The notes beneath the pieces were generated by a model that was not told the DNA's origin, ran no database searches, and was given only the letters and a program-made list of their open reading frames with translations. The position numbers and the translations under genes are program-made. From a virus: DNA of 20,577 nucleotides. Within the stretch, counting starts at the first letter, position 1, and each line of letters starts with the position of its first letter. The stretch covers positions 1-20,577 of the IMG/VR virus record IMGVR_UViG_3300031963_004722, one strand, 5' to 3'. Below, piece after piece: positions 9 to 20,577 of this stretch.

Positions 9-293
9 ATGGGGATGACCAAAGATGAAAAACAGTATCTGTCACGAGTCTCAGAACTCGGTTGTGCTGTCTGCCGAAGATTGGGATACCCTGGAACGCC
101 TGCTGAAATCCACCATCTGCGAGCAGGGCAGGGATGGGGCCGCAGTAGCCATTACCATGCAATACCACTCTGCCCCGAGCACCATAGAGGCAAAACTGGA
201 GTTCATGGACTAGGAACCAAAGGCTTCCCAAAACACTACGGGTTTACGGAACAAGACTTACTAGAGGATGTGCGGTGTTTACTATCTCCCTGA
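9..293 (+). CDS. Ref-like RecA-dependent HNH nuclease
   Basis: Small HNH nuclease resembling phage P1 Ref (RecA_dep_nuc family), which in P1 acts with RecA filaments to cut DNA in recombination. The 94-residue product has a CxxC pair near residues 19-22, an IHH motif at about 34-36, then SHYHAIPLCPEHHR with the second metal-binding Cys/His group, and a GVHGLG...YG tail typical of the Ref core. The long basic N-terminal tail of P1 Ref is absent. ATG at 9 or 15 would both work. The frame stays open to the left window edge and no ribosome binding site is visible, so the true start could lie outside. The stop overlaps the next gene by 19 bases. The family is clear; a role in homologous recombination beside the YqaJ exonuclease downstream is inferred. 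Confidence 0.8.
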   Translation: MGMTKDEKQYLSRVSELGCAVCRRLGYPGTPAEIHHLRAGQGWGRSSHYHAIPLCPEHHRGKTGVHGLGTKGFPKHYGFTEQDLLEDVRCLLSP

Positions 294-880
294 CGTTTTA
301 TAACGACCACGAGCACCTACACAGGCATATAGATGCTTGGCGTACATATCCTTATGTAGAGAAGCAAATAATAGACGACGGCAGTATTTCTCCCCCAGAT
401 GCAGATGTTCCTATCTACCGAATACACAGAGACATACCTTGGAACATTCCTGGGGCTAGAAACTTAGGAGCTACTGTCTGCCCGACGGAGTGGATTCTCT
501 TTTGCGATATGGACCAGACGTTTAGCAAAGAGGCGATAGATGCCATTATTGACACCAAGCTAGAAAGAGGGACTTTCTACTCCTTCCAGCGTAGGAACCG
601 ACCTAGAACCGCAGGCACGATGTTAGTCAGCAGGATGGACTACTGGCGGGTCGGTGGTTACGACGAGGATTTTGCCGGACATTACGGATACAACGACCCT
701 TACCTGAGAGCGTTGTTTTTACGCAACAATGTCCGAGAGGTAACACTTCCCATAATCTGCGACCAGCATAGTGCCGACTGCCAGCTAATCCGTACCCCAA
801 ATAATGAGGGTCTATACCAGCAAAAATTGCGGGGTGAGCACAGCCGAAACTACCTGAGATTTACATGGCAAAGGTACTAA
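275..880 (+). CDS. GT-A fold (family 2-like) glycosyltransferase
   Basis: Likely nucleotide-sugar-dependent glycosyltransferase of 201 residues. Residues 1-10 form the first beta strand (ISLTFYN), followed by IIDDGS at 32-37, ARNLGA at 61-66 and the metal-binding DMD at 78-80, in the family 2 order. A GGYDEDFAGHYGYNDPYL segment near 147-164 looks like the acceptor-side GG(Y/W)DE motif. There is no membrane segment, so it is probably cytoplasmic. The start is GTG at 275, preceded by AGAGGA at 263-268 with 6-base spacing; no ATG in frame keeps the first strand. It overlaps the Ref-like gene by 19 bases and the next gene by 16. The donor sugar and acceptor (DNA base, virion protein or host polysaccharide) cannot be read from sequence. 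Confidence 0.8.
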   Translation: MFTISLTFYNDHEHLHRHIDAWRTYPYVEKQIIDDGSISPPDADVPIYRIHRDIPWNIPGARNLGATVCPTEWILFCDMDQTFSKEAIDAIIDTKLERGTFYSFQRRNRPRTAGTMLVSRMDYWRVGGYDEDFAGHYGYNDPYLRALFLRNNVREVTLPIICDQHSADCQLIRTPNNEGLYQQKLRGEHSRNYLRFTWQRY

Positions 881-1518
881 TCTACACCTCGATTTTCGGG
901 GACTACGACTCGCTGAAGTCTCAGCCCGAGCAGTCCATAGACTGCACATTCATGCACTTTCGCCAACCGCACGAGGAACTAGGGGATAACCCTAGATTGC
1001 AGGCTAAGTATTACAAGCTCGTATTACACCGGATTTTTGGCTCTGAGAGCCCTTTTGATTACACGATATGGGTAGACGGGTCGGTACAGATTGCAAGCCC
1101 GTATTTCGCCGAATACATGGTTTCCCAGGCAAAAGACTCGTGGTGTATGTTCACCCACCCCTGGAGGGACTGTATATACGATGAGACCGAAGAGGCTCAC
1201 GATATGGTCAAGTATCTAGACGAACCTATGAAAGAGCAGATGGCTCACTATGCGAGCCAGGGTATGCCTAGAAACTTTGGCATGACCTCCGCTGGGATTA
1301 TTTGTAGGAACACCCGAAACCTGTCTGTAGTGGGGTTAGATGAGATGTGGTGGCGAGAGATTATGAGGTGGGGGATAAAAGACCAGATTCCGCTGCAATA
1401 CGTCTTGTGGAAAACAGGCCAAGAGATATTGCGGTGCGATAAGCCTTTGTTTGGCAACGGCTTATTTACAATTCATGCAGGCCACAGGGCAGAGGAGTAT
1501 AGAAAATTAAAGCGATAG
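865..1518 (+). CDS. TOD1/MUCI70 (DUF616)-like glycosyltransferase
   Basis: A 217-residue protein resembling the TOD1/MUCI70 glycosyltransferase-like domain (formerly DUF616). The N-terminal strand VLIYTSIFGDYD is followed by an Arg/Lys-rich KYYKLVLHRIFG segment and the signature YTIWVDGSVQI near 66-76, where the Asp replaces a DxD-type donor site. HPWRDCIYDE and an AGIICRNT strand follow, as in that family. No signal peptide or membrane segment is seen. It starts at ATG 865 inside the end of the preceding glycosyltransferase, with only a weak upstream GAG. It overlaps the following gene if that begins at ATT 1506. Its place between two other glycosyltransferase-like genes suggests they act on one glycan or one modified substrate, but this is inference. 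Confidence 0.75.
   Translation: MAKVLIYTSIFGDYDSLKSQPEQSIDCTFMHFRQPHEELGDNPRLQAKYYKLVLHRIFGSESPFDYTIWVDGSVQIASPYFAEYMVSQAKDSWCMFTHPWRDCIYDETEEAHDMVKYLDEPMKEQMAHYASQGMPRNFGMTSAGIICRNTRNLSVVGLDEMWWREIMRWGIKDQIPLQYVLWKTGQEILRCDKPLFGNGLFTIHAGHRAEEYRKLKR
1491..1497 (+). promoter_or_regulatory. Ribosome binding site that points to an ATT start
   Basis: AGAGGAG lies 8 bases upstream of ATT 1506. No ATG, GTG or TTG in the third glycosyltransferase frame lies within reach of it. The first conventional start, GTG 1530, has no purine-rich element in front of it. This is the main reason to place the gene start at 1506. Confidence 0.55.
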
Positions 1519-2192: not shown

Positions 2193-2581
2193 AAAATTGG
2201 GCTTGGTATTGTGCATGGGGCCATGTCGGGCCAGAGGTCCGCACCACCGCCGCTTCTGCTGAGGGGAACTACGAATCTGACGACGTTTTTGAGGGCGAGG
2301 AGCCTAGACTTGAACCGGATATGTTGGACGGGCAGCTAGTGGAAAACGCTATAAGGCAGCTCCCAGAAATGTCCCGCAAGGTTCTAAAGGCACGTTATAT
2401 AATGTATCCGTACCATCTGAAGCACACCGTATCCCAAAGGCTACGGATTTCGGTGGACAGGCTTGAAAGTGAATTACATATCGCCAAGAGGAGGCTTTAT
2501 GACCGATTACAGAGAAATACTTCAGGGAACCGAGGAGTGGCTGAAAGCTCGGTTGGGTTGTCTAACAGCATCACGGGCTAA
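2171..2581 (+). CDS. Sigma region 4 / antiterminator-like HTH protein
   Basis: A 136-residue probable transcription regulator. Residues 1-20 (VSEERLKNWAWYCAWG) and the acidic linker resemble small phage regulators. From about residue 60 the pattern QLPEMSRKVLKARYIM...VSQRLRISVDRLESELHIAKRRLYDRL reads like sigma-70 region 4 or a Q/ArpU-type phage HTH: LP..R.VL..RY, then a recognition helix. There is no region 2, so it is not a full sigma factor. It may control late gene expression, but that is inferred. ATG 2171 lies within the end of the glycosyltransferase gene and has only a weak ribosome binding site. The last 27 codons or so, after the HTH, overlap the exonuclease gene by 83 bases. Confidence 0.6.
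   Translation: MVSEERLKNWAWYCAWGHVGPEVRTTAASAEGNYESDDVFEGEEPRLEPDMLDGQLVENAIRQLPEMSRKVLKARYIMYPYHLKHTVSQRLRISVDRLESELHIAKRRLYDRLQRNTSGNRGVAESSVGLSNSITG
2488..2494 (+). promoter_or_regulatory. Ribosome binding site of the YqaJ-like exonuclease
   Basis: GAGGAGG ends 4 bases before ATG 2499. It fixes that ATG as the start rather than the in-frame ATG at 2463, which would add 12 unrelated residues and lies deeper in the upstream gene. Confidence 0.6.
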
Positions 2582-3095
2582 TGATGCCTGCGCTGCCGAA
2601 ACGACAGCCGCTTATCAAAACTATCTCTGGCAGCTTGTAGCAGAACGCGAGACAGGTCTTGCAGAAGATACCTACGTCAACGCCGATATGCAGCGGGGAA
2701 CCGAAAAAGAACCCATCGCCAGAGCCGCCTACGAGGCCCACACAGGGACTTTCGTCACCCAGACAGGGTTCTGGCTCCACCCCGAAATCCCGTACTTTGG
2801 CGCTTCTCCTGATGGCCTGGCCGGAAAAGGTCTTATCGAAATCAAATGCCCGAGAACAAGCACCCACCTCCAGTACCGAAAAGAAGGCAAAGTCCCTACG
2901 AAATACAAGCGACAGATGATGTGCCAACTGCTCTGTACGGGCAGGAAGTGGGTGGACTTTGTTAGCTTTGACGACAGGGTGCGGGAGTCTAAAAGACTTT
3001 TTATAGTCCGGTTTGAACCCAAGCAGTCAGAGTTAGACGAGATGATGGAGAAGGTTCAGGCTTTCTTAAAAGCAGTCGCCAAGGAGTGCGAGTGA
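2499..3095 (+). CDS. YqaJ/lambda-exonuclease-type recombination nuclease
   Basis: Phage 5'-3' exonuclease of the YqaJ/lambda Exo (PD-(D/E)XK) family, expected to resect double-strand ends for single-strand annealing. It is 198 residues long, usual for the family. GCLTASRAND at 20-29 is the conserved N-terminal Ser/Arg motif, and RGTEKEPIARAAYE at 66-79 carries the helical Glu. FGASPDG (D105) and LIEIKCP (E114, K116) form the catalytic D...ExK. RQMMCQLLCTG at 138-148 matches the conserved Gln helix. No annealing protein (Beta/RecT) is recognisable nearby; the SSB-like small protein and Ref-like nuclease are the other recombination candidates. The gene is coupled to the next ORF through GTGA at 3092-3095. 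Confidence 0.88.
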   Translation: MTDYREILQGTEEWLKARLGCLTASRANDACAAETTAAYQNYLWQLVAERETGLAEDTYVNADMQRGTEKEPIARAAYEAHTGTFVTQTGFWLHPEIPYFGASPDGLAGKGLIEIKCPRTSTHLQYRKEGKVPTKYKRQMMCQLLCTGRKWVDFVSFDDRVRESKRLFIVRFEPKQSELDEMMEKVQAFLKAVAKECE

Positions 3096-3241
3096 ATACA
3101 GTCTTGGTAGAAGCTCTCGCGCAGGAAATCTATGAGGTTATAGACCAGTACGGGGAGCAGATGCCAGTAGCGGCTGTGGTGGGTGTTTTAGAGGCGGTGA
3201 AGTATCAGTTGATGCGAAGAGCATCGGGGGATGAAGAGTGA
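3092..3241 (+). CDS. 49-aa hypothetical helical protein
   Basis: Short ORF of 49 residues filling the space between the exonuclease and the dehydratase genes. AAGGAG at 3081-3086 lies 5 bases before the GTG start, which overlaps the upstream stop (GTGA). Its own TGA at 3239-3241 overlaps the next GTG start in the same way. The product is acidic with a basic patch (LMRR) and reads as two amphipathic helices, VLVEALAQEIYEVIDQYG and VAAVVGVLEAVKYQLM. No family is recognised. The good ribosome binding site and coupling on both sides support real translation. Confidence 0.6.
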   Translation: MNTVLVEALAQEIYEVIDQYGEQMPVAAVVGVLEAVKYQLMRRASGDEE

Positions 3242-4224
3242 AAATTCTAGTAACAGGCGGGGCAGGATTTATCGCCCACCATCTGATAGACGAGCTGCTC
3301 TTGAAAACAGATGCGGAGATAGTCAGTCTAGACAGACTTGACTACTCTGGGAATCTGAACCGGCTACATAACGTCTTAGAAAACAACCCCCACAAGAAGC
3401 GGGTAAAGATTGTCCATCACGACCTGAAGGCTGAAATAAACCCCCATGTGGCCTCCCATATTGGGAAGGTAGACATCATCCTGCACCTGGCCGCTGGGAG
3501 TCATGTAGACCGTTCTATCGACTTCCCAATGGAGTTTGCGATGGACAACACCATCGGGACGGTCAACCTCTTAAATTATGCTCGGACGATAGATATACAA
3601 AGACTTGTATATTTTTCCACGGACGAGGTGTTTGGTCCGGCCCCCGAAGGCGTGTTTTATAAAGAAAACGATAGATACAACTCTACTAACCCATATTCCG
3701 CTAGTAAGGCTGCGGCAGAGGAGTTCTGCGTAGCGTTTGAGAATACCTACGGACTTCCGGTGTGGATTACGCACACCATGAACGTATTCGGGGAAAGGCA
3801 GTCGCCTGAGAAGTACATTCCGCTTTGTATTAAAAAGGTGGACAGGAAAGAGAAGATTACGATTCACTCCGACCCGTCTAAAACCAAGGCTGGGAGCAGG
3901 CATTACATCCACGCCCGAGACGTAGCAGACGCCATGCTTTTCCTGCTAAACGAGGTTAAGCAGGCAGATAAGTGCGCTAAGTTCAACATCGTAGGCAAGG
4001 AGGAATGGGACAACCTAAAGGTCGCAACTACGATTGCGGATATACAGGGTAAACCCTTGCACTACGAGATGGTGGACTTTCATTCTTCTAGACCAGGACA
4101 CGACCTGAGATACGCCTTAGATGGCTCGAAGATGGCAGCTCTAGGCTGGGTTCCGAGAATAGATATTGCAGAGAGGTTAGAACAGGTAGTTAATTGGAGC
4201 TTGAAAAACAAGGAGTGGCTATGA
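3238..4224 (+). CDS. dTDP-glucose 4,6-dehydratase-like SDR enzyme
   Basis: Extended short-chain dehydrogenase, closest to RmlB, which makes dTDP-4-keto-6-deoxyglucose from dTDP-glucose with bound NAD. The 328-residue product has TGGAGFIA at 6-13 (Ala replaces the third Gly of GxxGxxG), LHLAAGSHVDRSI at 82-94, STDEVFG with the RmlB catalytic pair D129/E130, and YSASK with Y153/K157. FGERQSPEKYIP and SRPGHDLRYALD at 284-295 are nucleotide-sugar-binding signatures of RmlB. The length fits the family. GTG 3238 overlaps the upstream stop, and the gene ends in an ATGA overlap. No RmlA, RmlC or RmlD is visible, so host dTDP-glucose is probably the source. Together with the glycosyltransferases it suggests a phage-made deoxysugar; a related UDP-sugar epimerase or dehydratase is possible. 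Confidence 0.82.
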   Translation: MKILVTGGAGFIAHHLIDELLLKTDAEIVSLDRLDYSGNLNRLHNVLENNPHKKRVKIVHHDLKAEINPHVASHIGKVDIILHLAAGSHVDRSIDFPMEFAMDNTIGTVNLLNYARTIDIQRLVYFSTDEVFGPAPEGVFYKENDRYNSTNPYSASKAAAEEFCVAFENTYGLPVWITHTMNVFGERQSPEKYIPLCIKKVDRKEKITIHSDPSKTKAGSRHYIHARDVADAMLFLLNEVKQADKCAKFNIVGKEEWDNLKVATTIADIQGKPLHYEMVDFHSSRPGHDLRYALDGSKMAALGWVPRIDIAERLEQVVNWSLKNKEWL

Positions 4225-4697: not shown

Positions 4698-5102
4698 ATG
4701 AGCATTTTCTATGACGTAGATGCCTTTATGAAGGCGGCGGGACACGGACCAGACCAGAAAAAGGTCGGTCTGTACCTAGACTTGGTGCGGGAAGAAATTG
4801 GGGAGTTAGAAGAAGCGATGGCCGCTTTTCACTCTTCCGAGAACCTTCAGGACGAGCAGGTAGCAAAAGCAGACGCTTTGGATGCGATTTGCGACTCTAT
4901 CTGGGTCTTGATAGGTCTAGGGAAGGTCATGGACCTGCCAATTGAGTGGGGGTGGGATGAGGTCACAATCACGAACCTCAAGAAGATTGACGCCGAACTA
5001 GGAACCGTCTTGCGAGACGACCACGGCAAGATTATGAAACCTCCTGGCTGGAGACCTCCCAATATGCTCAGGATTATCCAAGAGTTTGATAAGCAAAAAT
5101 GA
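4698..5102 (+). CDS. MazG-like nucleotide pyrophosphohydrolase
   Basis: All-alpha NTP pyrophosphohydrolase-like protein (PRA-PH/MazG superfamily), which hydrolyses (d)NTPs or related nucleotides to monophosphates. With ATG 4698 it has 134 residues; GTG 4689 and TTG 4686 are alternatives and none has a clear ribosome binding site. The metal-binding EExxE is at 32-36 (REEIGELEEA). The second helix, DALDAICDSIWVLIGLG, has D59, D62 and D66 where ExxD is usual. A GHGPDQ segment at 15-20 and the WDEVTITNLKKID helix also fit phage members. Phage MazG-like enzymes are thought to tune nucleotide pools; the substrate is not determined by sequence. Confidence 0.78.
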   Translation: MSIFYDVDAFMKAAGHGPDQKKVGLYLDLVREEIGELEEAMAAFHSSENLQDEQVAKADALDAICDSIWVLIGLGKVMDLPIEWGWDEVTITNLKKIDAELGTVLRDDHGKIMKPPGWRPPNMLRIIQEFDKQK

Positions 5103-5601
5103 ACTCAGGAGCCTCTTTACTTACAAGAGAGGCCACCTGTACTGGAAGCCCCGACCCGAGGAGTCGTTTGCCAAGTATTCTGCTTATGTGATGTGGAATA
5201 GGAGATATGCCAGCAAGAGGGCTGGCTCTCCTAACAAACGGGGTTATATCAGAATTGGTATAGCCAAGAAGTACTACATGGAGCACCGGCTCATCTGGCT
5301 GTTTCATAAGGGATGGTTGCCAGAGGCTATCGACCACAGAAACGGGAAACCAGCAGACAACAGGATGTCTAATCTCCGTGCGGCTACGCAGATGGAGAAC
5401 CGCTGGAACTCTCGTAGGAAGCAACCTACCAAGACGAATGTAAAAGGGGTCTACAGGCGGGATAATGGCAAGTATGAAGCCCACATCTGCGCCGACCACA
5501 AACGAATACACCTCGGGGTCTTTGTTCGCAAGCGAGACGCCATTAGAATCGTATCAGCCGCCAGAAAAGCGTTGCATAAAACATTTGCTCGGCATCGTTA
5601 G
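5086..5601 (+). CDS. HNH endonuclease with AP2 domain (homing type)
   Basis: Free-standing homing-type endonuclease of 171 residues. The HNH core runs from about 66 to 110: EHRLIWLFHKGWLPE, IDHRNG with D83/H84, DNRMSNLR and the N105 region, the usual HNH_3 pattern. Residues 121-165 (GVYRRDNGKYEAHI...HLGVFVRKRDAIRIV...ARKALH) form an AP2-like DNA-binding domain. TTG 5086 gives the expected N-terminus (MISKNELRSLFTYKRGHLYW) and overlaps the MazG-like gene by 17 bases; the first in-frame ATG, at residue 36, would cut this region off. Such genes move by cutting alleles that lack them. No disrupted gene is seen around it. Confidence 0.85.
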   Translation: MISKNELRSLFTYKRGHLYWKPRPEESFAKYSAYVMWNRRYASKRAGSPNKRGYIRIGIAKKYYMEHRLIWLFHKGWLPEAIDHRNGKPADNRMSNLRAATQMENRWNSRRKQPTKTNVKGVYRRDNGKYEAHICADHKRIHLGVFVRKRDAIRIVSAARKALHKTFARHR

Positions 5602-6266: not shown

Positions 6267-6370
6267 TCAAACATTCCCGCAAAGGTAATGATTAGATAGT
6301 TAGCCGCCGCAGCCAAGATAAGGCTTGTGGCAACAGGGTATTCGGCAAACAAAGCGGCAAATTCCATCAT
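6263..6370 (-). CDS. 35-aa membrane peptide beside endolysin
   Basis: Tiny ORF of 35 residues between the 3TM holin and the lysozyme. It starts at an ATG overlapping the holin stop (ATGATG context) and ends in a TGA that overlaps the lysozyme GTG start. After an acidic N-terminus (MMEFAALFAEYP) it has one hydrophobic segment (VATSLILAAAANYLIITFAGMF). An AGGATGGG stretch lies about 8-11 bases upstream. Position and coupling suggest a lysis accessory such as a pinholin or antiholin, but nothing in the sequence proves it. Confidence 0.5.
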   Translation of the reverse strand: MMEFAALFAEYPVATSLILAAAANYLIITFAGMFE

Positions 6371-6870
6371 TTCTTAGCCCATCCTCTAGAACCGAACCAG
6401 TAGCCAATAATACCGCCTAGCATAGCCATTTCGTCTTGGCTGAACACTACGTCTGAGAACTTGAGAACGTCGTCAATGCTTGTAATAACTCCGGGCAGGG
6501 AGAAGATGTGCCACATAATCCAGACGTTGATTGCCACGAGTTCGAGAACCAGGATGTAGGTAATGGTCGGTCTTACCGTCCCGACATAGTTCACCACCCA
6601 CTTGCTAGACTTATCTAGAATCTTGGCGTCGTGGGCTAGAGCTGCCTGCTGCATCTGAGACTCTGCCTGCATGGCAATCTGGTCTGTACGGATTTCCTCG
6701 ACCTTCTGCTGGGCTAAAAACCCTTCCCGGGCAAGAGCTAGTTCTCGCTCCGTCTGAACCCGTGCAAGCTCCATTTCATGCTTCTTATCCGCTTTATCTT
6801 GGAAGAACTCCAAGACTTTAGGTAATCCAGAGATAAGTAGACCGCCGAGGGTAGATAACAGACTTAGCAT
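6367..6870 (-). CDS. 3TM holin-like protein
   Basis: Resembles the GTA/phage 3TM holin family, which permeabilises the inner membrane for endolysin release. From ATG 6870 (TAATG overlap with the upstream stop, GGGAG 7 bases before) it has 167 residues; the longer frame from 6936 adds 22 unrelated residues. A first hydrophobic stretch (LLSTLGGLLISGLP) precedes a long Lys/Glu/Gln-rich helix (about 20-85). The family signature follows: VRPTITYILVLELVAINVWIMW, and the C-terminal GGIIGYWFGSRGWAKK. It is followed directly by the 35-aa peptide and the endolysin, a classical lysis cassette order. Confidence 0.78.
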   Translation of the reverse strand: MLSLLSTLGGLLISGLPKVLEFFQDKADKKHEMELARVQTERELALAREGFLAQQKVEEIRTDQIAMQAESQMQQAALAHDAKILDKSSKWVVNYVGTVRPTITYILVLELVAINVWIMWHIFSLPGVITSIDDVLKFSDVVFSQDEMAMLGGIIGYWFGSRGWAKK

Positions 6871-7310
6871 TACAGGGCTCCCGTTGCTTTTAGTATTCCG
6901 TAGACAATTGCTGAAACTAGAAGAATCCCACCCCACTCCCGTCTGGCCTGCATACGGTTGCGGTAAAACTCGTCGTTGAGTTCCCGGTGGTCTTTACGAA
7001 GTTGGTTGATTAAGGATTTGACTTCCGAGACAGCGGAGCGTCCAAACTCCCTCTCCACCTCTCGGTACATGGCTTGTTCTGCGTCGCGGATTTGTCGGAT
7101 GATTCGGTACTCATCTACCGCTTCCATCCACACCATGTCGCCACGGCGCATCATCTGTTGTTGTTTGCGTTTCCACGCTACACGGGCTTTTGCTTCCTCG
7201 TCTAAGAAAGTATTGACCTCCTTAGCGGTTTCTTTTATCTCACGCCCGACCTTGACTGCTTCTTTTATACTTCCTAGTGCTGCCCGTGTTGTCTCAATCG
7301 GGTCACTCAT
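6870..7310 (-). CDS. Tail-anchored coiled-coil protein
   Basis: A 146-residue helical protein. About residues 1-122 are very rich in charged residues (ETAKEVNTFLDEEAKARVAW, REVEREFGR, LINQLRKDHRELNDEFYRNR) with heptad-like spacing. One C-terminal membrane segment (WGGILLVSAIVYGILKATGAL) ends the chain. The start ATG 7310 follows GGGAG. The stop shares a base with the holin start, so it belongs to the lysis cassette. The topology (C-terminal anchor) is opposite to an i-spanin. Related unnamed proteins occur in environmental phage genomes, but I do not recognise a function. Confidence 0.65.
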   Translation of the reverse strand: MSDPIETTRAALGSIKEAVKVGREIKETAKEVNTFLDEEAKARVAWKRKQQQMMRRGDMVWMEAVDEYRIIRQIRDAEQAMYREVEREFGRSAVSEVKSLINQLRKDHRELNDEFYRNRMQARREWGGILLVSAIVYGILKATGAL

Positions 7311-7317
7311 TATCTCC

Positions 7318-8259
7318 CTATACTTTCTCTCCTCTGAAGTAAGCCTCTCCGTCTATTACTTCGCATAGTTCTGGCGGCAGTAGTTTGCCATTGTTAAACG
7401 TCAAAACAGCAAAACCGCTACACCAGTTCACGGGGTTACATTCCGTGTAGGTAAATTGGTCTCCGTAGGGTTCTGCCAAAGTCCCGGTATCTACACCGTA
7501 TCGTCGCCCGTCGTAGTCCGACCACGGGTAAACCTGGAGCTTGTGAAGGTGTCCGGTGACGATGCTTCTCCCAGACTTCAGCGTATTGTTATACGTTGCG
7601 TGTTGCCCGTTATGCCACCTGTGCTTCACAACTACGTCATCATTTATGTCTACTCGCCAGCCCGTGTGCCAGCCTGGGAAGTAGTCGAATAGTCCTTGGA
7701 AGTCGGATAACTCAGGAGCGTTGACAGCAATATAGCGGTGCAGCCGGACATCGTGATTACCAAAAGTCCAGAAACAGCGAGCGTTCTTGGTAGCGTTCCT
7801 AATCTCATCTAGACGGTCCTGGCAGGCTTCTATCTCTTGTTTAGGGGTAGGAGGGTTAGTGCCCATAAGAGGCTCGTGGCGGCAGATTCTGGAGCCGTCA
7901 AAGACATCCCCGTTCAGGATGACCGTCTGGGGCTTAAATTCGGTCAGCAAGGCGATGAAGGCTTTGTGGGCTACCGTTACCTCACCGGGCCAGTAATGGC
8001 AGTCAGAGGCCACAAAAACCCGCCCATTGTCGACTTGGTGGGAAAGGATGCGTTTGTTATCAGGAATGATAGTCTTTACGACCGATTCCTGTTTGGCGGC
8101 AAAAGAGGGTAGGGTTATCCCTAACTTCTGCTGGATGGCGGTTCGTCTCTTGTAGACGGTGGTGACATCCATTCCCAACTCTTTAGCGACATAGGTAGGA
8201 CTACCCAATCGTTTCAGAGCATCAATTATTTTCTCGTCCGGTACTCTTGCTACGGCCAC
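7318..8259 (-). CDS. Metallophosphoesterase with N-terminal HTH
   Basis: A 313-residue calcineurin-like metallophosphoesterase. The metal-ligand motifs are in order: D86xH88 (ASDCHYW), GD118 (LNGDVFDG), GNH169D170, a histidine region near 213-220 (KHRWHNGQH), and GH237xH239 (VTGHLHKLQV). The extra N-terminal 50 residues (KIIDALKRLGSPTYVAKELGMDVTTVYKRR) form a helix-turn-helix typical of DNA-binding or terminase-small-subunit-like proteins. The start is GTG 8259, preceded by GGGAGGG with 4-base spacing, inside the end of the hydrolase gene. The phosphoester substrate is unknown; the HTH points to a nucleic acid. Confidence 0.82.
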   Translation of the reverse strand: MAVARVPDEKIIDALKRLGSPTYVAKELGMDVTTVYKRRTAIQQKLGITLPSFAAKQESVVKTIIPDNKRILSHQVDNGRVFVASDCHYWPGEVTVAHKAFIALLTEFKPQTVILNGDVFDGSRICRHEPLMGTNPPTPKQEIEACQDRLDEIRNATKNARCFWTFGNHDVRLHRYIAVNAPELSDFQGLFDYFPGWHTGWRVDINDDVVVKHRWHNGQHATYNNTLKSGRSIVTGHLHKLQVYPWSDYDGRRYGVDTGTLAEPYGDQFTYTECNPVNWCSGFAVLTFNNGKLLPPELCEVIDGEAYFRGEKV

Positions 8260-8677
8260 GAATCCCTCCCAAGCGCATAGTGTCTATAGGTTCATGGGAT
8301 GAGGTGTCATACAGGCAAGCGAGCTTTACGGCTTCGGTAGGTGATAACCCTAAGTGCATAGCTGCTATTGCGTAATTTGCCCCAGTTCCAATCGCCCAAA
8401 AGTCGTTCTTAATACGCGCAGGAATGATAGTCCCCTCGTAAACCCAGAGACCGTCACTTCTAAGCTCAAGAACGGTAACGTCGGTATCGGAGTCCAGTTC
8501 TCCACCGGACTCCAAAACCTGTAACATTTTCAAGCATTTATCCCAATCTCCGCAAGCCCCATATACAGAGTTTTTTCCCCTGCGGAGCTTTTCCACGAGA
8601 TAAAAGGAGTCGTCGCCGCTAACCATAGAATCTGCGGCAATTTCTCCCGTAGATACCTTAGCGGCAACTGTGGTCAT
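8222..8677 (-). CDS. HslV/proteasome-like Ntn-hydrolase
   Basis: A 151-residue protein resembling HslV-type N-terminal-nucleophile peptidases. The chain begins MTTVAAK, so removal of Met would expose Thr1. AADS places an Asp at mature position 15 (HslV D17), and VEKLRRG places Lys at mature 29 (HslV K33). A GACGD segment and GTGANYAIAAMHLGLSPTEAVKLAC correspond to the HslV SGGNYALAA helix. No partner ATPase (HslU) is visible. Phage relatives occur, but their substrates are unproven; a role in virion protein maturation or host proteolysis is speculative. The ATG overlaps the stop of the 55-aa holin-like gene (ATGA). The Arg/Ser-rich C-terminal tail overlaps the phosphoesterase start by 38 bases. 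Confidence 0.7.
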   Translation of the reverse strand: MTTVAAKVSTGEIAADSMVSGDDSFYLVEKLRRGKNSVYGACGDWDKCLKMLQVLESGGELDSDTDVTVLELRSDGLWVYEGTIIPARIKNDFWAIGTGANYAIAAMHLGLSPTEAVKLACLYDTSSHEPIDTMRLGGIRGRSKSTGRENN

Positions 8678-8841
8678 TTTTTCTTAAGCCACCTTTGAAC
8701 CGTGTCCAATTCGTATATACGAAAACCCGTCCACACAATCGTAAACAGGGCTGCAATGGCCGGAAGTATCTCAGCCAGGGTTCCGATAACGGTTATGACG
8801 GAAACCCCGTCAGCAACGTGTTTAGCGTGTTCAGTTGCCAT
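8674..8841 (-). CDS. 55-aa holin-like membrane protein
   Basis: Small protein of 55 residues with one or two hydrophobic stretches (VSVITVIGTLAEILPAIAALFTIVW), an N-terminal amphipathic start (MATEHAKHVADG) and a basic tail (WLKKK). RIYE followed by the basic tail matches small holin-like proteins common in podovirus-type genomes. AAGGAAG lies 6 bases before ATG 8841. The TGA overlaps the hydrolase ATG, and the start overlaps the 51-aa gene by 11 bases. It is separated from the endolysin by four genes, so its membership of the lysis system is likely but not certain. Confidence 0.65.
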   Translation of the reverse strand: MATEHAKHVADGVSVITVIGTLAEILPAIAALFTIVWTGFRIYELDTVQRWLKKK

Positions 8842-8986
8842 CTTTTTCTTCCTTAGGGAGTTGCTCTTCTGCCTGCTCTTTAATCTTCACCACCAAAGGC
8901 CAAGCACCGGATGATGTCGGTAGTTGACCTAGGGTTTGCAGGATGCCGTTGACTTCTTCTACTGTGAGTTCAAGTTTGATGTTCAT
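8831..8986 (-). CDS. 51-aa conserved phage protein after tail fibre
   Basis: A 51-residue protein starting at ATG 8986 in an ATGA overlap with the tail fibre stop, with GGAGA 5 bases upstream. The pattern NIKLELTVEEVNGILQTLGQLPTSSGAWPLVVKIKEQAEEQ is a beta strand followed by two helices. It is recognisable as a small conserved family found next to tail fibre or holin genes in many podovirus-like genomes. The C-terminus is Lys/Glu-rich. The role is unknown; a fibre assembly factor is one possibility from position only. Confidence 0.6.
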   Translation of the reverse strand: MNIKLELTVEEVNGILQTLGQLPTSSGAWPLVVKIKEQAEEQLPKEEKDGN

Positions 8987-10890
8987 TTGTTCTCCAGAGC
9001 CGCTAGTCTTGCTTCAAATGCGGCGTTCTGTGCTTCTAGTGTTTCGATGCGTTCCATTGCTTCTTGCAGGGCTTTAATCGCCAGCCAATACATCGGTTGC
9101 TCACGGATACCAAAATACTCAGGCGTGGCTTCCTTGGCTTCTATGGCAGGCTCAACGACATTACCTTCTTCGTCCAACACCGCCTCTTTAGCCTCAACCG
9201 CTTCTTTGGCTTCTTGCGTGACTACGACTAACTCAGGGACAATTGGCTGAACCTGCTGTGCAATAACACCATACAGAAGCGGGTCGCCTTCATTGCAGTT
9301 TTTATATCTAAAATTAACAACCTCAATTGCTTTTACCTTATCCCATGATGTAGTGAGTGGGGATATATCTTTTTTCAAGCGTTCATCAGATGCAAGATTG
9401 ACATTGTTTGCGGAGTAGTTTGCAAGACCGCCATTAGAACGGATTTGCGCCTTAAACCCTGCGGTATCCTCGCAATCAAGAAAACGATTTGTTGTATTGT
9501 TTGGTGGAGTGGCATTTGAATAATAGACCTGTACCCCAAATGGGCTTGTGTTGCTATGCTGAAAAGACCCAACATAGCTACCGTTCGATGTTTGTAAAGC
9601 TGTTATCTTTCCACCAGTAGTCGTAGTCCCCACCATAAAATCACCACCGCTGGTAATACGGGCACGTTCTGTGCTGTTAGTTAAAAACACCATTGGCGCA
9701 TTCTGCCAAGTTCCAAAGCGCATTGAACTATCCGCAGTATTTGTATACATACTGCCAATGAATGTTCCGTTGATTGATAATTCGTAAGAGGCGTTTGTGC
9801 TTGCCGCTGAGTTGAGCGTTATCGCTTTATTTACACCACCAAGGTTTGGCGAACTCGTACCAATCCCCACATTACCGCTGGAGTCGATACGCATGCGTTC
9901 TGTTGTGCCACCAGTATCAAAACGAATATAGCTGTCTGAAGCACGACCTATGATGTTTACATAACTTCCTGTAACATTTCCACTAAATAGTTGAGCAATT
10001 CCTGTGCTTGCACTTTCATTTCCAAAAAGCTGTAATACAGCACCTCTACCAGTTGCGGAACCGCCACCGCCACTAATTACTAAACTGCTAGTATCGCTAC
10101 CATCCGAAGTATTTGTTCCAATCAATGCGGCTGCATTGTTAAGCAATACATCACCTGTGCTGGTGATACGCATACGCTCTGTTAGTGTAGATGCTCCGTC
10201 TGCTGTTGTTCTAAACACTAACCGACCGGGCATATCATTAGTGCCTGGAGTTCCGTCTACTTCACCAGTAATTCTTGCCGCAAAAACAAAATTTGTTCCA
10301 TCTGAACCAGAAAAATTTATCGCACCAAGTTGGTCGCCAGAGGCAACAATTGTTTGACCAACGGTTGCGCTTTTTGACCTTGATAACCAAAGTTGACCGC
10401 CGACACCGGCAGATGTTGAATACTGGTTATGTGCAAGACCCCCATCGTTTAATCCGGATGCACTTAAGTTAGGTGTGTAATTTCCAGGTTGAGCAACATT
10501 TGATGTTTGTTTTACCAACACATTACCGCTGGAGTCGATACGCATACCCTCCACACCACCCTCTGCAAATGCAATTGTGTCAGCAGCAGGGAAGAAGATG
10601 CCGGTGTTGGTGTCGCCGTGAGCTGCGATACTTGGGGTTCCTACTGCACCTGCGGCAAAGGTAGCGGTAGTAGAGCCTGTAATCGTATTTGTGCCTGACA
10701 TCAGCACCCCGCCAGCAAAGGTAAATGCGTCTCCAGAAGCTCCCGTCTGGAACTCCTTTAGGTGAACCATAAGTTCACGGATAGCATTGTTAATACCGGA
10801 AGGAGCGCATCCCTCCGCGATATTTATACTTTCAATATCGGTATTGTCTGAATTAGTGGTTGAGTACTCACTTAATTTTGTGCGGGGCAT
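8983..10890 (-). CDS. Tail fibre with S74 intramolecular chaperone
   Basis: Receptor-binding tail fibre or tailspike of 635 residues. Residues 1-50 form a typical virion-attachment region (INIAEGCAPSGINNAIREL). About 55-490 is a repetitive beta region with recurrent ERMRI(D/T)S(S)G(N/D)V units (near 116, 239, 332, 409). The C-terminal 135 residues are an endosialidase-type peptidase S74 chaperone: SDERLKKDI at 501-509 carries the self-cleavage Ser-Asp, followed by LLYGVIAQQV and a final coiled coil (ALQEAMERIETLEAQNAAF). An EAKEA-rich insert sits at about 560-588. Trimerisation and self-cleavage are known for the family. ATG 10890 has GGAG upstream. The receptor specificity cannot be read. 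Confidence 0.9.
   Translation of the reverse strand: MPRTKLSEYSTTNSDNTDIESINIAEGCAPSGINNAIRELMVHLKEFQTGASGDAFTFAGGVLMSGTNTITGSTTATFAAGAVGTPSIAAHGDTNTGIFFPAADTIAFAEGGVEGMRIDSSGNVLVKQTSNVAQPGNYTPNLSASGLNDGGLAHNQYSTSAGVGGQLWLSRSKSATVGQTIVASGDQLGAINFSGSDGTNFVFAARITGEVDGTPGTNDMPGRLVFRTTADGASTLTERMRITSTGDVLLNNAAALIGTNTSDGSDTSSLVISGGGGSATGRGAVLQLFGNESASTGIAQLFSGNVTGSYVNIIGRASDSYIRFDTGGTTERMRIDSSGNVGIGTSSPNLGGVNKAITLNSAASTNASYELSINGTFIGSMYTNTADSSMRFGTWQNAPMVFLTNSTERARITSGGDFMVGTTTTGGKITALQTSNGSYVGSFQHSNTSPFGVQVYYSNATPPNNTTNRFLDCEDTAGFKAQIRSNGGLANYSANNVNLASDERLKKDISPLTTSWDKVKAIEVVNFRYKNCNEGDPLLYGVIAQQVQPIVPELVVVTQEAKEAVEAKEAVLDEEGNVVEPAIEAKEATPEYFGIREQPMYWLAIKALQEAMERIETLEAQNAAFEARLAALENK
9869..9894. 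repeat. Copy 1 of a 26-bp direct repeat in the fibre gene
   Basis: A 26-base stretch identical to 10520-10545. On the gene strand it encodes the MRIDSSGNV unit of the fibre repeats, so selection at protein level may explain part of it, yet synonymous positions are also identical. Confidence 0.85.
10520..10545. repeat. Copy 2 of the 26-bp direct repeat in the fibre gene
   Basis: Identical to 9869-9894, 651 bases away in the same orientation and codon phase. Recombination between the copies would delete 217 codons in frame. Confidence 0.85.
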
Positions 10891-19278: not shown

Positions 19279-19899
19279 TTACCTCGTGGTTACGGTCATT
19301 ACTAATGGAACGCCTGCAAATTCTGATTCTTCATCAGACGTATTTATGCGGGTGATGGATTGGTTGTAAAGGCTGGACCAAGTTTGAGTGCGAGCATCGT
19401 TCATAAGATACGGCTCGGCTTCCAAGAGACTTCCGTAGAGAAGGGCGTCTGGGTAGTTAGCCATGAACTCGTTGCTCGTGTTGCTATCAGAAAGTGCTAT
19501 CGGCTTGTAGTAGTAAAGCATCTGCACGACATACGCAGAATCTGGTTTGGGAGCGAACTCAAACTCGTTGGACCGCAAGGTATAAAAGACGGGTAGACCT
19601 TGTTCGTCAGCCCGTGAGTTGGCAGAAAACGCACTCGGGGAAAGATACGAGACTACTGTTCTTGGAGTGCCTTGCAGGTATACGTCGCGGATTGCTAAGA
19701 AATCTGATGGGAGACCGACTGTTGCGTCTCCTGCTGTCATGGTTGCGGTTGCTGTTTTGAGCATCCGGCGGGTCCGAATATCACGAGACAGACGGAGTTC
19801 GGCCAGCGTAATAAAGTCGGGAATCTGGCTCGTCAGGTCGCTCCGTCCGAGGTAATTCGCAACGCTAGTCTTGAGGTCGCTGTATGTTGCTAGGCTCAT
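19279..19899 (-). CDS. gp4-like head-tail adaptor
   Basis: Adaptor protein that joins the portal to the tail, resembling P22 gp4/SU10-type adaptors. From ATG 19899 it has 206 residues; ATG 19947 would add 16 residues not typical of the family and has no better ribosome binding site. MSLATYSDLKTSVANYLGRS, DFITLAELRLSRDIRTR and the LPSDFLAIRDVYLQG segment, then YYKPIALSDSNTSNEF and YPDALLYGSLLEAEPYL, follow the family order. The N-terminus overlaps the glycosyltransferase gene by 35 bases. It supports a podovirus-type neck and predicts portal and capsid genes beyond the right edge. Confidence 0.75.
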   Translation of the reverse strand: MSLATYSDLKTSVANYLGRSDLTSQIPDFITLAELRLSRDIRTRRMLKTATATMTAGDATVGLPSDFLAIRDVYLQGTPRTVVSYLSPSAFSANSRADEQGLPVFYTLRSNEFEFAPKPDSAYVVQMLYYYKPIALSDSNTSNEFMANYPDALLYGSLLEAEPYLMNDARTQTWSSLYNQSITRINTSDEESEFAGVPLVMTVTTR

Positions 19900-20577
19900 C
19901 TTTCGTCTCTGGGTAATCGTGCCAGCCGAACGTGTACTGTCCGACATGGCCTATTTGGTTTGACAAGTCGTGGTCTAAAAAGGTTGGGTATCCTGCGTCT
20001 AAAGCCTTGATGCAGAAGTAAACATCTTCCCCTAGTAACTTGCCGCCTGGAATCTGCTCAAACCAAAACCAAGGTTTCGGTGTGTTTTCAAATACTTCCC
20101 GCTTTACCATCATCACCCCGCAACCGACGGCGGTGACCTCTTCTAAACCTGTTTTCCCTTTGCTTACGACCGGAACCCAATGGTTCTCTTTCTTTTCGTT
20201 GTCTATCAACAGGTTCTTAGCTGTTGGTTTGACAGGGATGGAACGGGTTGTTGCGTTGACCCCGACGATTGGTTTGTCGTGGGCCATCAGAATATCTATC
20301 GTGTTCTTGGGGAAACGCATATCGGCGTCTATCCACAAGATGTAGTCTGCGCCTTCTTTTAAGGCTTCCTGCGCCATCTTCTCGCGCTGGTCGAATATCA
20401 GGGTTCCAGCCACCGTGTAAATGGACTGATGCCCTACCCTGTGTCTGGCGTCGTAGGCACACAAGACCGCTAGGTCAAAGGCTGTGCCTATCTCCATCTC
20501 ACCCCGACTCGGGATGCAGATTGCTATTTTCTTACCTTCTAGTCTGTTCTTGGCTTTAATCTTGTCGTGAATCTTGC
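19865..20577 (-). CDS. Glycosyltransferase (GT-A), 5' end not resolved
   Basis: GT-A-type glycosyltransferase, incomplete or with an unusual start. Motifs: AICIPSRGEMEIGTAFDLA (donor-binding first strand and helix), ILWIDADMRFP with DAD at 20321-20329, VTAVGCGVMMVKREVFE, and GEDVYFCIKALDAGYPTFLDHDLS with the following HVG. ATG 20497 would give 210 residues but removes the first beta strand, so it is rejected. The frame is open to the window edge with no ATG, GTG or TTG; ATA 20527 has AGAAGG 7 bases upstream and is a candidate start. It lies directly before the adaptor gene, so it may act on virion proteins or be cotranscribed for another use. The donor is unknown. Confidence 0.72.
   Translation of the reverse strand, partial: KIHDKIKAKNRLEGKKIAICIPSRGEMEIGTAFDLAVLCAYDARHRVGHQSIYTVAGTLIFDQREKMAQEALKEGADYILWIDADMRFPKNTIDILMAHDKPIVGVNATTRSIPVKPTAKNLLIDNEKKENHWVPVVSKGKTGLEEVTAVGCGVMMVKREVFENTPKPWFWFEQIPGGKLLGEDVYFCIKALDAGYPTFLDHDLSNQIGHVGQYTFGWHDYPETKDEPSNIQRPQD
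20535..20540 (-). promoter_or_regulatory. Possible ribosome binding site before ATA 20527
   Basis: AGAAGG on the - strand with a 7-base gap to ATA 20527, which opens the KIAICIPSRG strand of the glycosyltransferase. It is weaker evidence than at 1491 because the frame also runs on to the window edge. Confidence 0.3.

Follow-up and report, generated by a model that had tools for sequence, protein, structure and literature searches.

A proteasome-like hydrolase of the PPH family encoded near the lysis genes of a phage record

Introduction

Which role could a small proteasome-like hydrolase have among the late genes of a phage that seems to carry no HslU-like ATPase? The question is raised by an open reading frame in the IMG/VR virus record IMGVR_UViG_3300031963_004722, of which all 20,577 bases were analysed and are called the window here. 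The record has tail and endolysin genes and is perhaps a genome fragment; its source is a freshwater phage, and the contigs of its longer relatives measure ~36 kb. The original prediction, made from the letters and reading frames, saw in this frame an HslV-like Ntn-hydrolase encoded between holin-like and phosphoesterase genes. In enzymes of the proteasome type, the freed threonine acts together with Asp17 and Lys33, and a methionine in front of a threonine is removed by methionine aminopeptidase.

Several proteasome relatives are candidates for comparison. In a study of 22 new proteasome homologues (PMC8665760), PPH is defined as a group of proteins of ~140 residues from tailed phages that have no propeptide, lack helix H2 and possess a proteasome-like core with equivalents of Thr1, Asp17, Lys33, and Gly47. 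BPH is the beta-proteobacteria proteasome homologue (available part of PMC5777263), and a homologue of it is named among phage genes in the available part of a phage paper (PMC8953757). Activation of HslV is treated in PMC6429459, as far as its available part goes. Among the titles and abstracts searched, a scope that left preprints and most subscription journals outside, there was no experiment on, or enzymatic activity of, a phage PPH.

A predicted proteasome-like fold with conserved catalytic residues

The frame of 151 codons starting with MTTVA is read on the minus strand, from 8677 to 8222, and the plus-strand reading of the same segment is interrupted by stops. The Thr2, Asp16, and Lys30 residues and the GANYAIAA helix that had first drawn attention are all present in this protein. 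In L004, a relative with an identical gene, there is no upstream in-frame start; threonine is residue 2, and no propeptide precedes it. The positions of the gene, its catalytic codons and its neighbours are collected in Table 1.

Table 1. Features of the window, with position, strand and the basis of each assignment.
Feature	Position	Strand	Basis or remark
PPH-family proteasome-like Ntn hydrolase, 151 aa	8222-8677	-	phrog_1040; fold match (HslV, BPH, proteasome beta); conserved catalytic residues
Thr2 codon, predicted N-terminal nucleophile once Met is removed	8672-8674	-	conservation and model alignment
Asp16 codon (proteasome Asp17 equivalent)	8630-8632	-	conservation
Lys30 codon (proteasome Lys33 equivalent)	8588-8590	-	conservation
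Asp124 codon (probable proteasome Asp166 equivalent)	8306-8308	-	conservation
Codons of residues 127-129	8291-8299	-	Ser-His-Glu in the window clade
55-aa membrane-type ORF, upstream	8674-8841	-	stop overlaps PPH start (ATGA); no PHROG family; sub-threshold Pfam match only
Calcineurin-like metallophosphoesterase	7318-8259	-	PF00149 E 1.6e-8; phrog_221 E 2e-25
146-aa ORF, no assigned function, between phosphoesterase and lysis genes	6870-7310	-	
189-aa putative membrane protein; position alone makes it a holin candidate	6367-6936	-	phrog_6637 (unknown function) E 2e-17
Endolysin (phage lysozyme)	5763-6266	-	PF00959 E 1.5e-36; phrog_7
Tail fibre	8983-10890	-	ends in Peptidase_S74 intramolecular chaperone domain (PF13884)
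Glycosyltransferase-like gene	275-880	+	PF00535/PF10111
Glycosyltransferase-like gene	865-1518	+	PF04765
Glycosyltransferase-like gene	19865-20497	-	PF03452, at threshold
Nucleotide-sugar dehydratase/epimerase	3238-4224	+	PF16363 E 6e-52
YqaJ-type exonuclease/recombinase	2463-3095	+	
RecA-dependent nuclease-like ORF	9-293	+	
HNH_3 endonuclease-domain ORF	5086-5601	+	

The window protein matched a single PHROG family, phrog_1040 'peptidase HslV family' (E 8.1e-26, residues 1-143). Searched alone, it gave nothing significant in Pfam and NCBIfam, with PF00227 Proteasome unmatched at the gathering score, and among solved structures only a weak match to BPH (E 0.051). We also used A5, an alignment of 61 phage sequences obtained mostly from a search seeded with N-terminal patterns. 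All 61 members likewise matched phrog_1040, 28 of them matched PF00227 singly at E <= 0.01, and the A5 profile, when compared with the PDB, found proteasome beta subunits (best E 2.2e-11), BPH (7e-11), and HslV (3e-10).

With the A5 alignment as input, AlphaFold2 predicted a confident fold of the proteasome-beta/HslV type (pLDDT 89.6, pTM 0.84), and the Ntn fold proposed from the sequence is thus borne out by the model. HslV and BPH were the top Foldseek matches, BPH being second. VIA-align reached a best Z of 18.9 and found its closest folds among proteases. In its alignments with HslV (4g4e) and proteasome beta2 (1iru), residue 2 of the model falls on the first residue of the chain, which is the position of the catalytic Thr1. 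The only model helices of at least four residues are 45-57, 100-108, and 113-123; the first helical layer consists of one helix (45-57), and helix H2 is absent.

Conservation was counted in two sets. In A5, Thr2, Asp16, Lys30, and Asp124 are present in 61/61 sequences, the invariance of Thr2 and Asp16 being partly by construction because N-terminal patterns had seeded the search. A1, which comprises 24 diverse members and mainly tblastn hits, is the fairer set. Here, Thr2, Asp16, Gly43, Gly97, Gly99, and Asp124 are kept in all 24 members, and Lys30 in 23, where the lone exception may be a misaligned row. Loss of the threonine, aspartate or lysine in relatives had been named as an outcome that would speak against the assignment, and it was not seen. 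We take Asp124 to be the probable counterpart of proteasome Asp166. In comparisons with 11 clade members, dN/dS was 0.07-0.15 in nine and, because synonymous sites were saturated, not computable in two; the gene is under purifying selection.

These features indicate the family. The protein is best placed as a new member of the known, functionally uncharacterised PPH family: its length of 151 aa (untruncated diverse relatives have 139-176 aa), its origin in a virus record with tail and endolysin genes, the fold, the core with equivalents of Thr1, Asp17, Lys33, and Gly47, the missing propeptide, the three helices without H2, and the lack of an AAA_2 gene all fit PPH and not HslV. This filing goes by features, as the phrog_1040 match links only indirectly to the cluster defined by the authors of PMC8665760. 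The AAA_2 profile (PF07724) of HslU-type unfoldases was found in none of 25 PPH-carrying records, some of which are fragments, and was detected in 14 of 14 control genomes; the expectation that no HslU-like ATPase would be present has thus held. HslV proper, by contrast, is ruled out by the missing helix H2 and the missing AAA_2 gene, and its two full flanking helix pairs H1-H4 are not found in the model. Of the predicted HslV-like Ntn-hydrolase, the fold therefore stands, and the idea of an orphan HslV gives way to PPH.

From here, the simplest reading is that of an unfoldase-independent peptidase, because both an unfoldase gene and helix H2 are missing. We hold with moderate confidence, at about even chances, that the protein is such a threonine peptidase of the PPH family and is made together with the late genes. 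The host methionine aminopeptidase would take off Met1 and leave Thr2 as the N-terminal nucleophile, which, aided by Asp16 and Lys30, would hydrolyse peptide bonds. Since the enzyme lacks a propeptide, helix H2, and a phage HslU/ClpX partner, it probably works without a dedicated unfoldase; its targets would be accessible segments or small unfolded proteins, cleaved within a putative homo-oligomer. As this PPH gene stands in the late/lysis block, its substrates would be expected among the late proteins of the phage or those host proteins that are at hand in the late stage.

The gene neighbourhood in the window clade

The window clade comprises 144 relatives among the IMG/VR candidates, of which the best 80, with 47 distinct proteins, were used. 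Among these best 80 of 144, the phosphoesterase follows PPH in 79 loci, and the one exception stops at a contig edge. In the window, the phosphoesterase start overlaps the PPH end by 38 bases, and in 71 of the 79 loci the phosphoesterase match begins 34 bases ahead of the end of the PPH match. A possible N-terminal HTH in the phosphoesterase is sub-threshold. Upstream, a counterpart of the 55-aa membrane-type ORF is recognisable in 32 of the same 80 loci. The predicted neighbours were thus correct for the phosphoesterase, and the label 'holin-like' for the 55-aa ORF found no backing in PHROG or, above threshold, in Pfam. Wherever the downstream sequence reaches 3.6 kb or more, which is the case in 44 loci of this set, both the 189-aa putative membrane protein and the lysozyme were found, in agreement with the original placement of the gene with late and lysis genes.

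The pair of PPH and phosphoesterase is fixed in the clade and is not a family-wide unit. Only one of 50 other PPH records has a phrog_221 match (L164, also labelled G018; E 4e-7), and this match sits inside the next long ORF, which fits phrog_1745 'DNA transfer protein' far better. The phrog_1745 gene is the next long gene after PPH at L164 (1944-3467) and at L199 (2544-4190). The phosphatase of Klebsiella FBKp34, which is encoded beside a long PPH relative, has no clear similarity to the window phosphoesterase (BLASTP E 0.025).

Scans for promoters and terminators yielded counts not clearly above those of shuffled sequences. No prophage relative of the window clade was found in 136 candidate stretches by a genome-contig search with the close-clade alignment, a procedure that reaches close relatives only, and a plasmid search returned partial Rhizobium matches only (E 0.03). 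The fibre gene upstream of PPH is highly variable among relatives. Elsewhere in the record, the nucleotide-sugar dehydratase/epimerase suggests surface-sugar synthesis or modification; glycosyltransferase-like, nuclease and recombinase genes are listed in Table 1.

Packaging and lysis genes beside other PPH genes

A diverse set of 80 loci was reduced to 48 by removal of near-copies; for sets A6 and A7, neighbours were counted family by family. Ten long neighbours among the 48 loci were scanned, nine of them upstream (picked from 44) and one downstream. The nine upstream neighbours were five terminase large subunits, two portal proteins, one head-tail adaptor and one unmatched protein; the genes of the eight that matched each share 4 bases with the start of PPH. 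In Caulobacter CcrSC, the gene ahead of PPH is likewise annotated as terminase large subunit, and at L178 scaffold and capsid genes come after PPH. A terminase match is present in 28 of the 48 records, of which 10 have PPH at most 1 kb away from it, compared with 4.0 expected under uniform placement; for records of at least 25 kb, the count is 7 of 21 against 1.6 expected. This null is crude, as it ignores shared gene order and kinship, and the trials are not independent. In a 62-member tree, nine changes are required for the packaging-neighbour label, at least five of them forced by well-supported branches, and two for the lysis label; the labels were assigned by hand, the check for portal neighbours covered only part of the rows labelled 'other', and the bootstrap is not settled. 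The repeated occurrence of PPH next to packaging or lysis genes is hence a lead only, because the trials are non-independent and the null is crude.

This lead feeds the most serious alternative, namely that PPH is not degradative but a sequence-specific processing enzyme, or a connectase-like ligase, that serves a single protein of the virion or of packaging, for instance the portal, terminase, scaffold or a tail protein. The terminase, portal and adaptor neighbours with their short overlaps, the distances to terminase, the order at L178 and the forced changes on the tree all speak in its favour, as does the finding that profiles for S78, S49, and ClpP-type proteases matched no gene in any of 27 records. 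Against it, the window-clade gene sits with lysis and not packaging genes, the uniform-placement null is blind to shared gene order and kinship, and L145 encodes a 'protease' of its own (phrog_458) two genes downstream of PPH. Podovirus-like phages, moreover, often need no prohead protease. The argument that PPH substitutes for a missing one is weak for this reason, and we regard the processing enzyme as possible but rather unlikely. Slightly more doubtful still is a broader proposal that joins both contexts, in which PPH would be a maturation peptidase coupled to head formation and packaging or to lysis, acting without an unfoldase and translationally coupled to its neighbours in several independent phage lineages.

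A second alternative would give PPH a part in lysis timing by degradation of a holin, an antiholin or a small membrane protein encoded next to it. The fixed synteny with the putative membrane protein and the lysozyme in the window clade is consistent with this, and in Guernseyvirinae (Salmonella phage Ent1 and E. coli phage phiEc3) PPH stands directly before two annotated holins and the endolysin. However, the PPH of DSL-LC04, the closest annotated relative outside the clade (52% identity), adjoins neither a phosphoesterase nor annotated lysis genes, and most other lineages examined likewise have no annotated lysis genes nearby; we consider control of lysis timing improbable.

In addition, PPH genes occur in accessory or replication regions of Rhizobium, Colossus, Erythrobacter XM05 (where PPH adjoins a primase), Vibrio, Shewanella, and other phages. 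As some of these regions are apparently early or accessory, late timing is not family-wide. Long C-terminal extensions are found at L090 (3501-4412, 304 aa; Klebsiella FBKp34) and L092 (3501-4220, 240 aa; Shewanella 1/40), and both have a lysozyme and a PhoH-like gene just upstream.

Discussion

One observation within the protein counts against the favoured threonine peptidase. Most relatives have Ser/Thr-Gly-Gly at residues 127-129, whereas the window clade has His-Glu in place of Gly-Gly after Ser127, and His128-Glu129 adjoin the catalytic network beside the conserved Asp124. The Ntn clan also includes non-proteases (PMC8665760), and the exchange could mark an amidohydrolase with a non-protein amide as its substrate, or else a scaffold that has lost catalysis. 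Yet all catalytic residues are kept under purifying selection and the closest folds are proteases, so that we consider either version quite improbable. Least probable of all is a partnership with HslU or a different AAA+ unfoldase of the host, which would be borrowed and then redirected or blocked: the HslV-like fold and catalytic site and the lack of a phage unfoldase of the AAA_2 kind would suit it, but the model has no helix H2, and for BPH the available part of PMC5777263 reports HslU-contact residues that are not conserved and pull-downs without HslU.

The PPH family itself was already known, and the gene context, a modest lead, is what our analysis adds. The recurrent terminase, portal, and lysis neighbours offer a concrete place to seek PPH substrates, and the small, apparently intact enzyme is an easy test case for a proteasome fold that would work without an unfoldase. 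If the proposal of a late-stage maturation peptidase is true, PPH would represent a new kind of phage protease for morphogenesis or lysis.

Among the known systems, HslV (ClpQ), a hexameric double ring that the C-terminus of HslU activates, resembles the window protein in its fold, its N-terminal threonine and the start MTT, and the name of phrog_1040 implies HslV as well, though the features of the window protein do not support this. Compared with HslV, the window protein is ~20-30 residues shorter and has neither helix H2 nor an hslU gene. BPH shares the fold, the absence of a propeptide and the lack of a known unfoldase, but is bacterial, longer and a tetradecamer, according to the available part of PMC5777263. 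The extended relatives at L090 and L092 resemble the 'RPC' group of PMC8665760. The best agreement is with the PPH proteins of the same study, which, like the window protein, have ~140-150 residues, are phage-borne, carry the Thr/Asp/Lys set and have no propeptide, no H2 and no AAA+ partner. Within this family, the window clade is set apart by Ser-His-Glu in place of the usual Ser/Thr-Gly-Gly and by its fixed neighbourhood of phosphoesterase and lysis genes.
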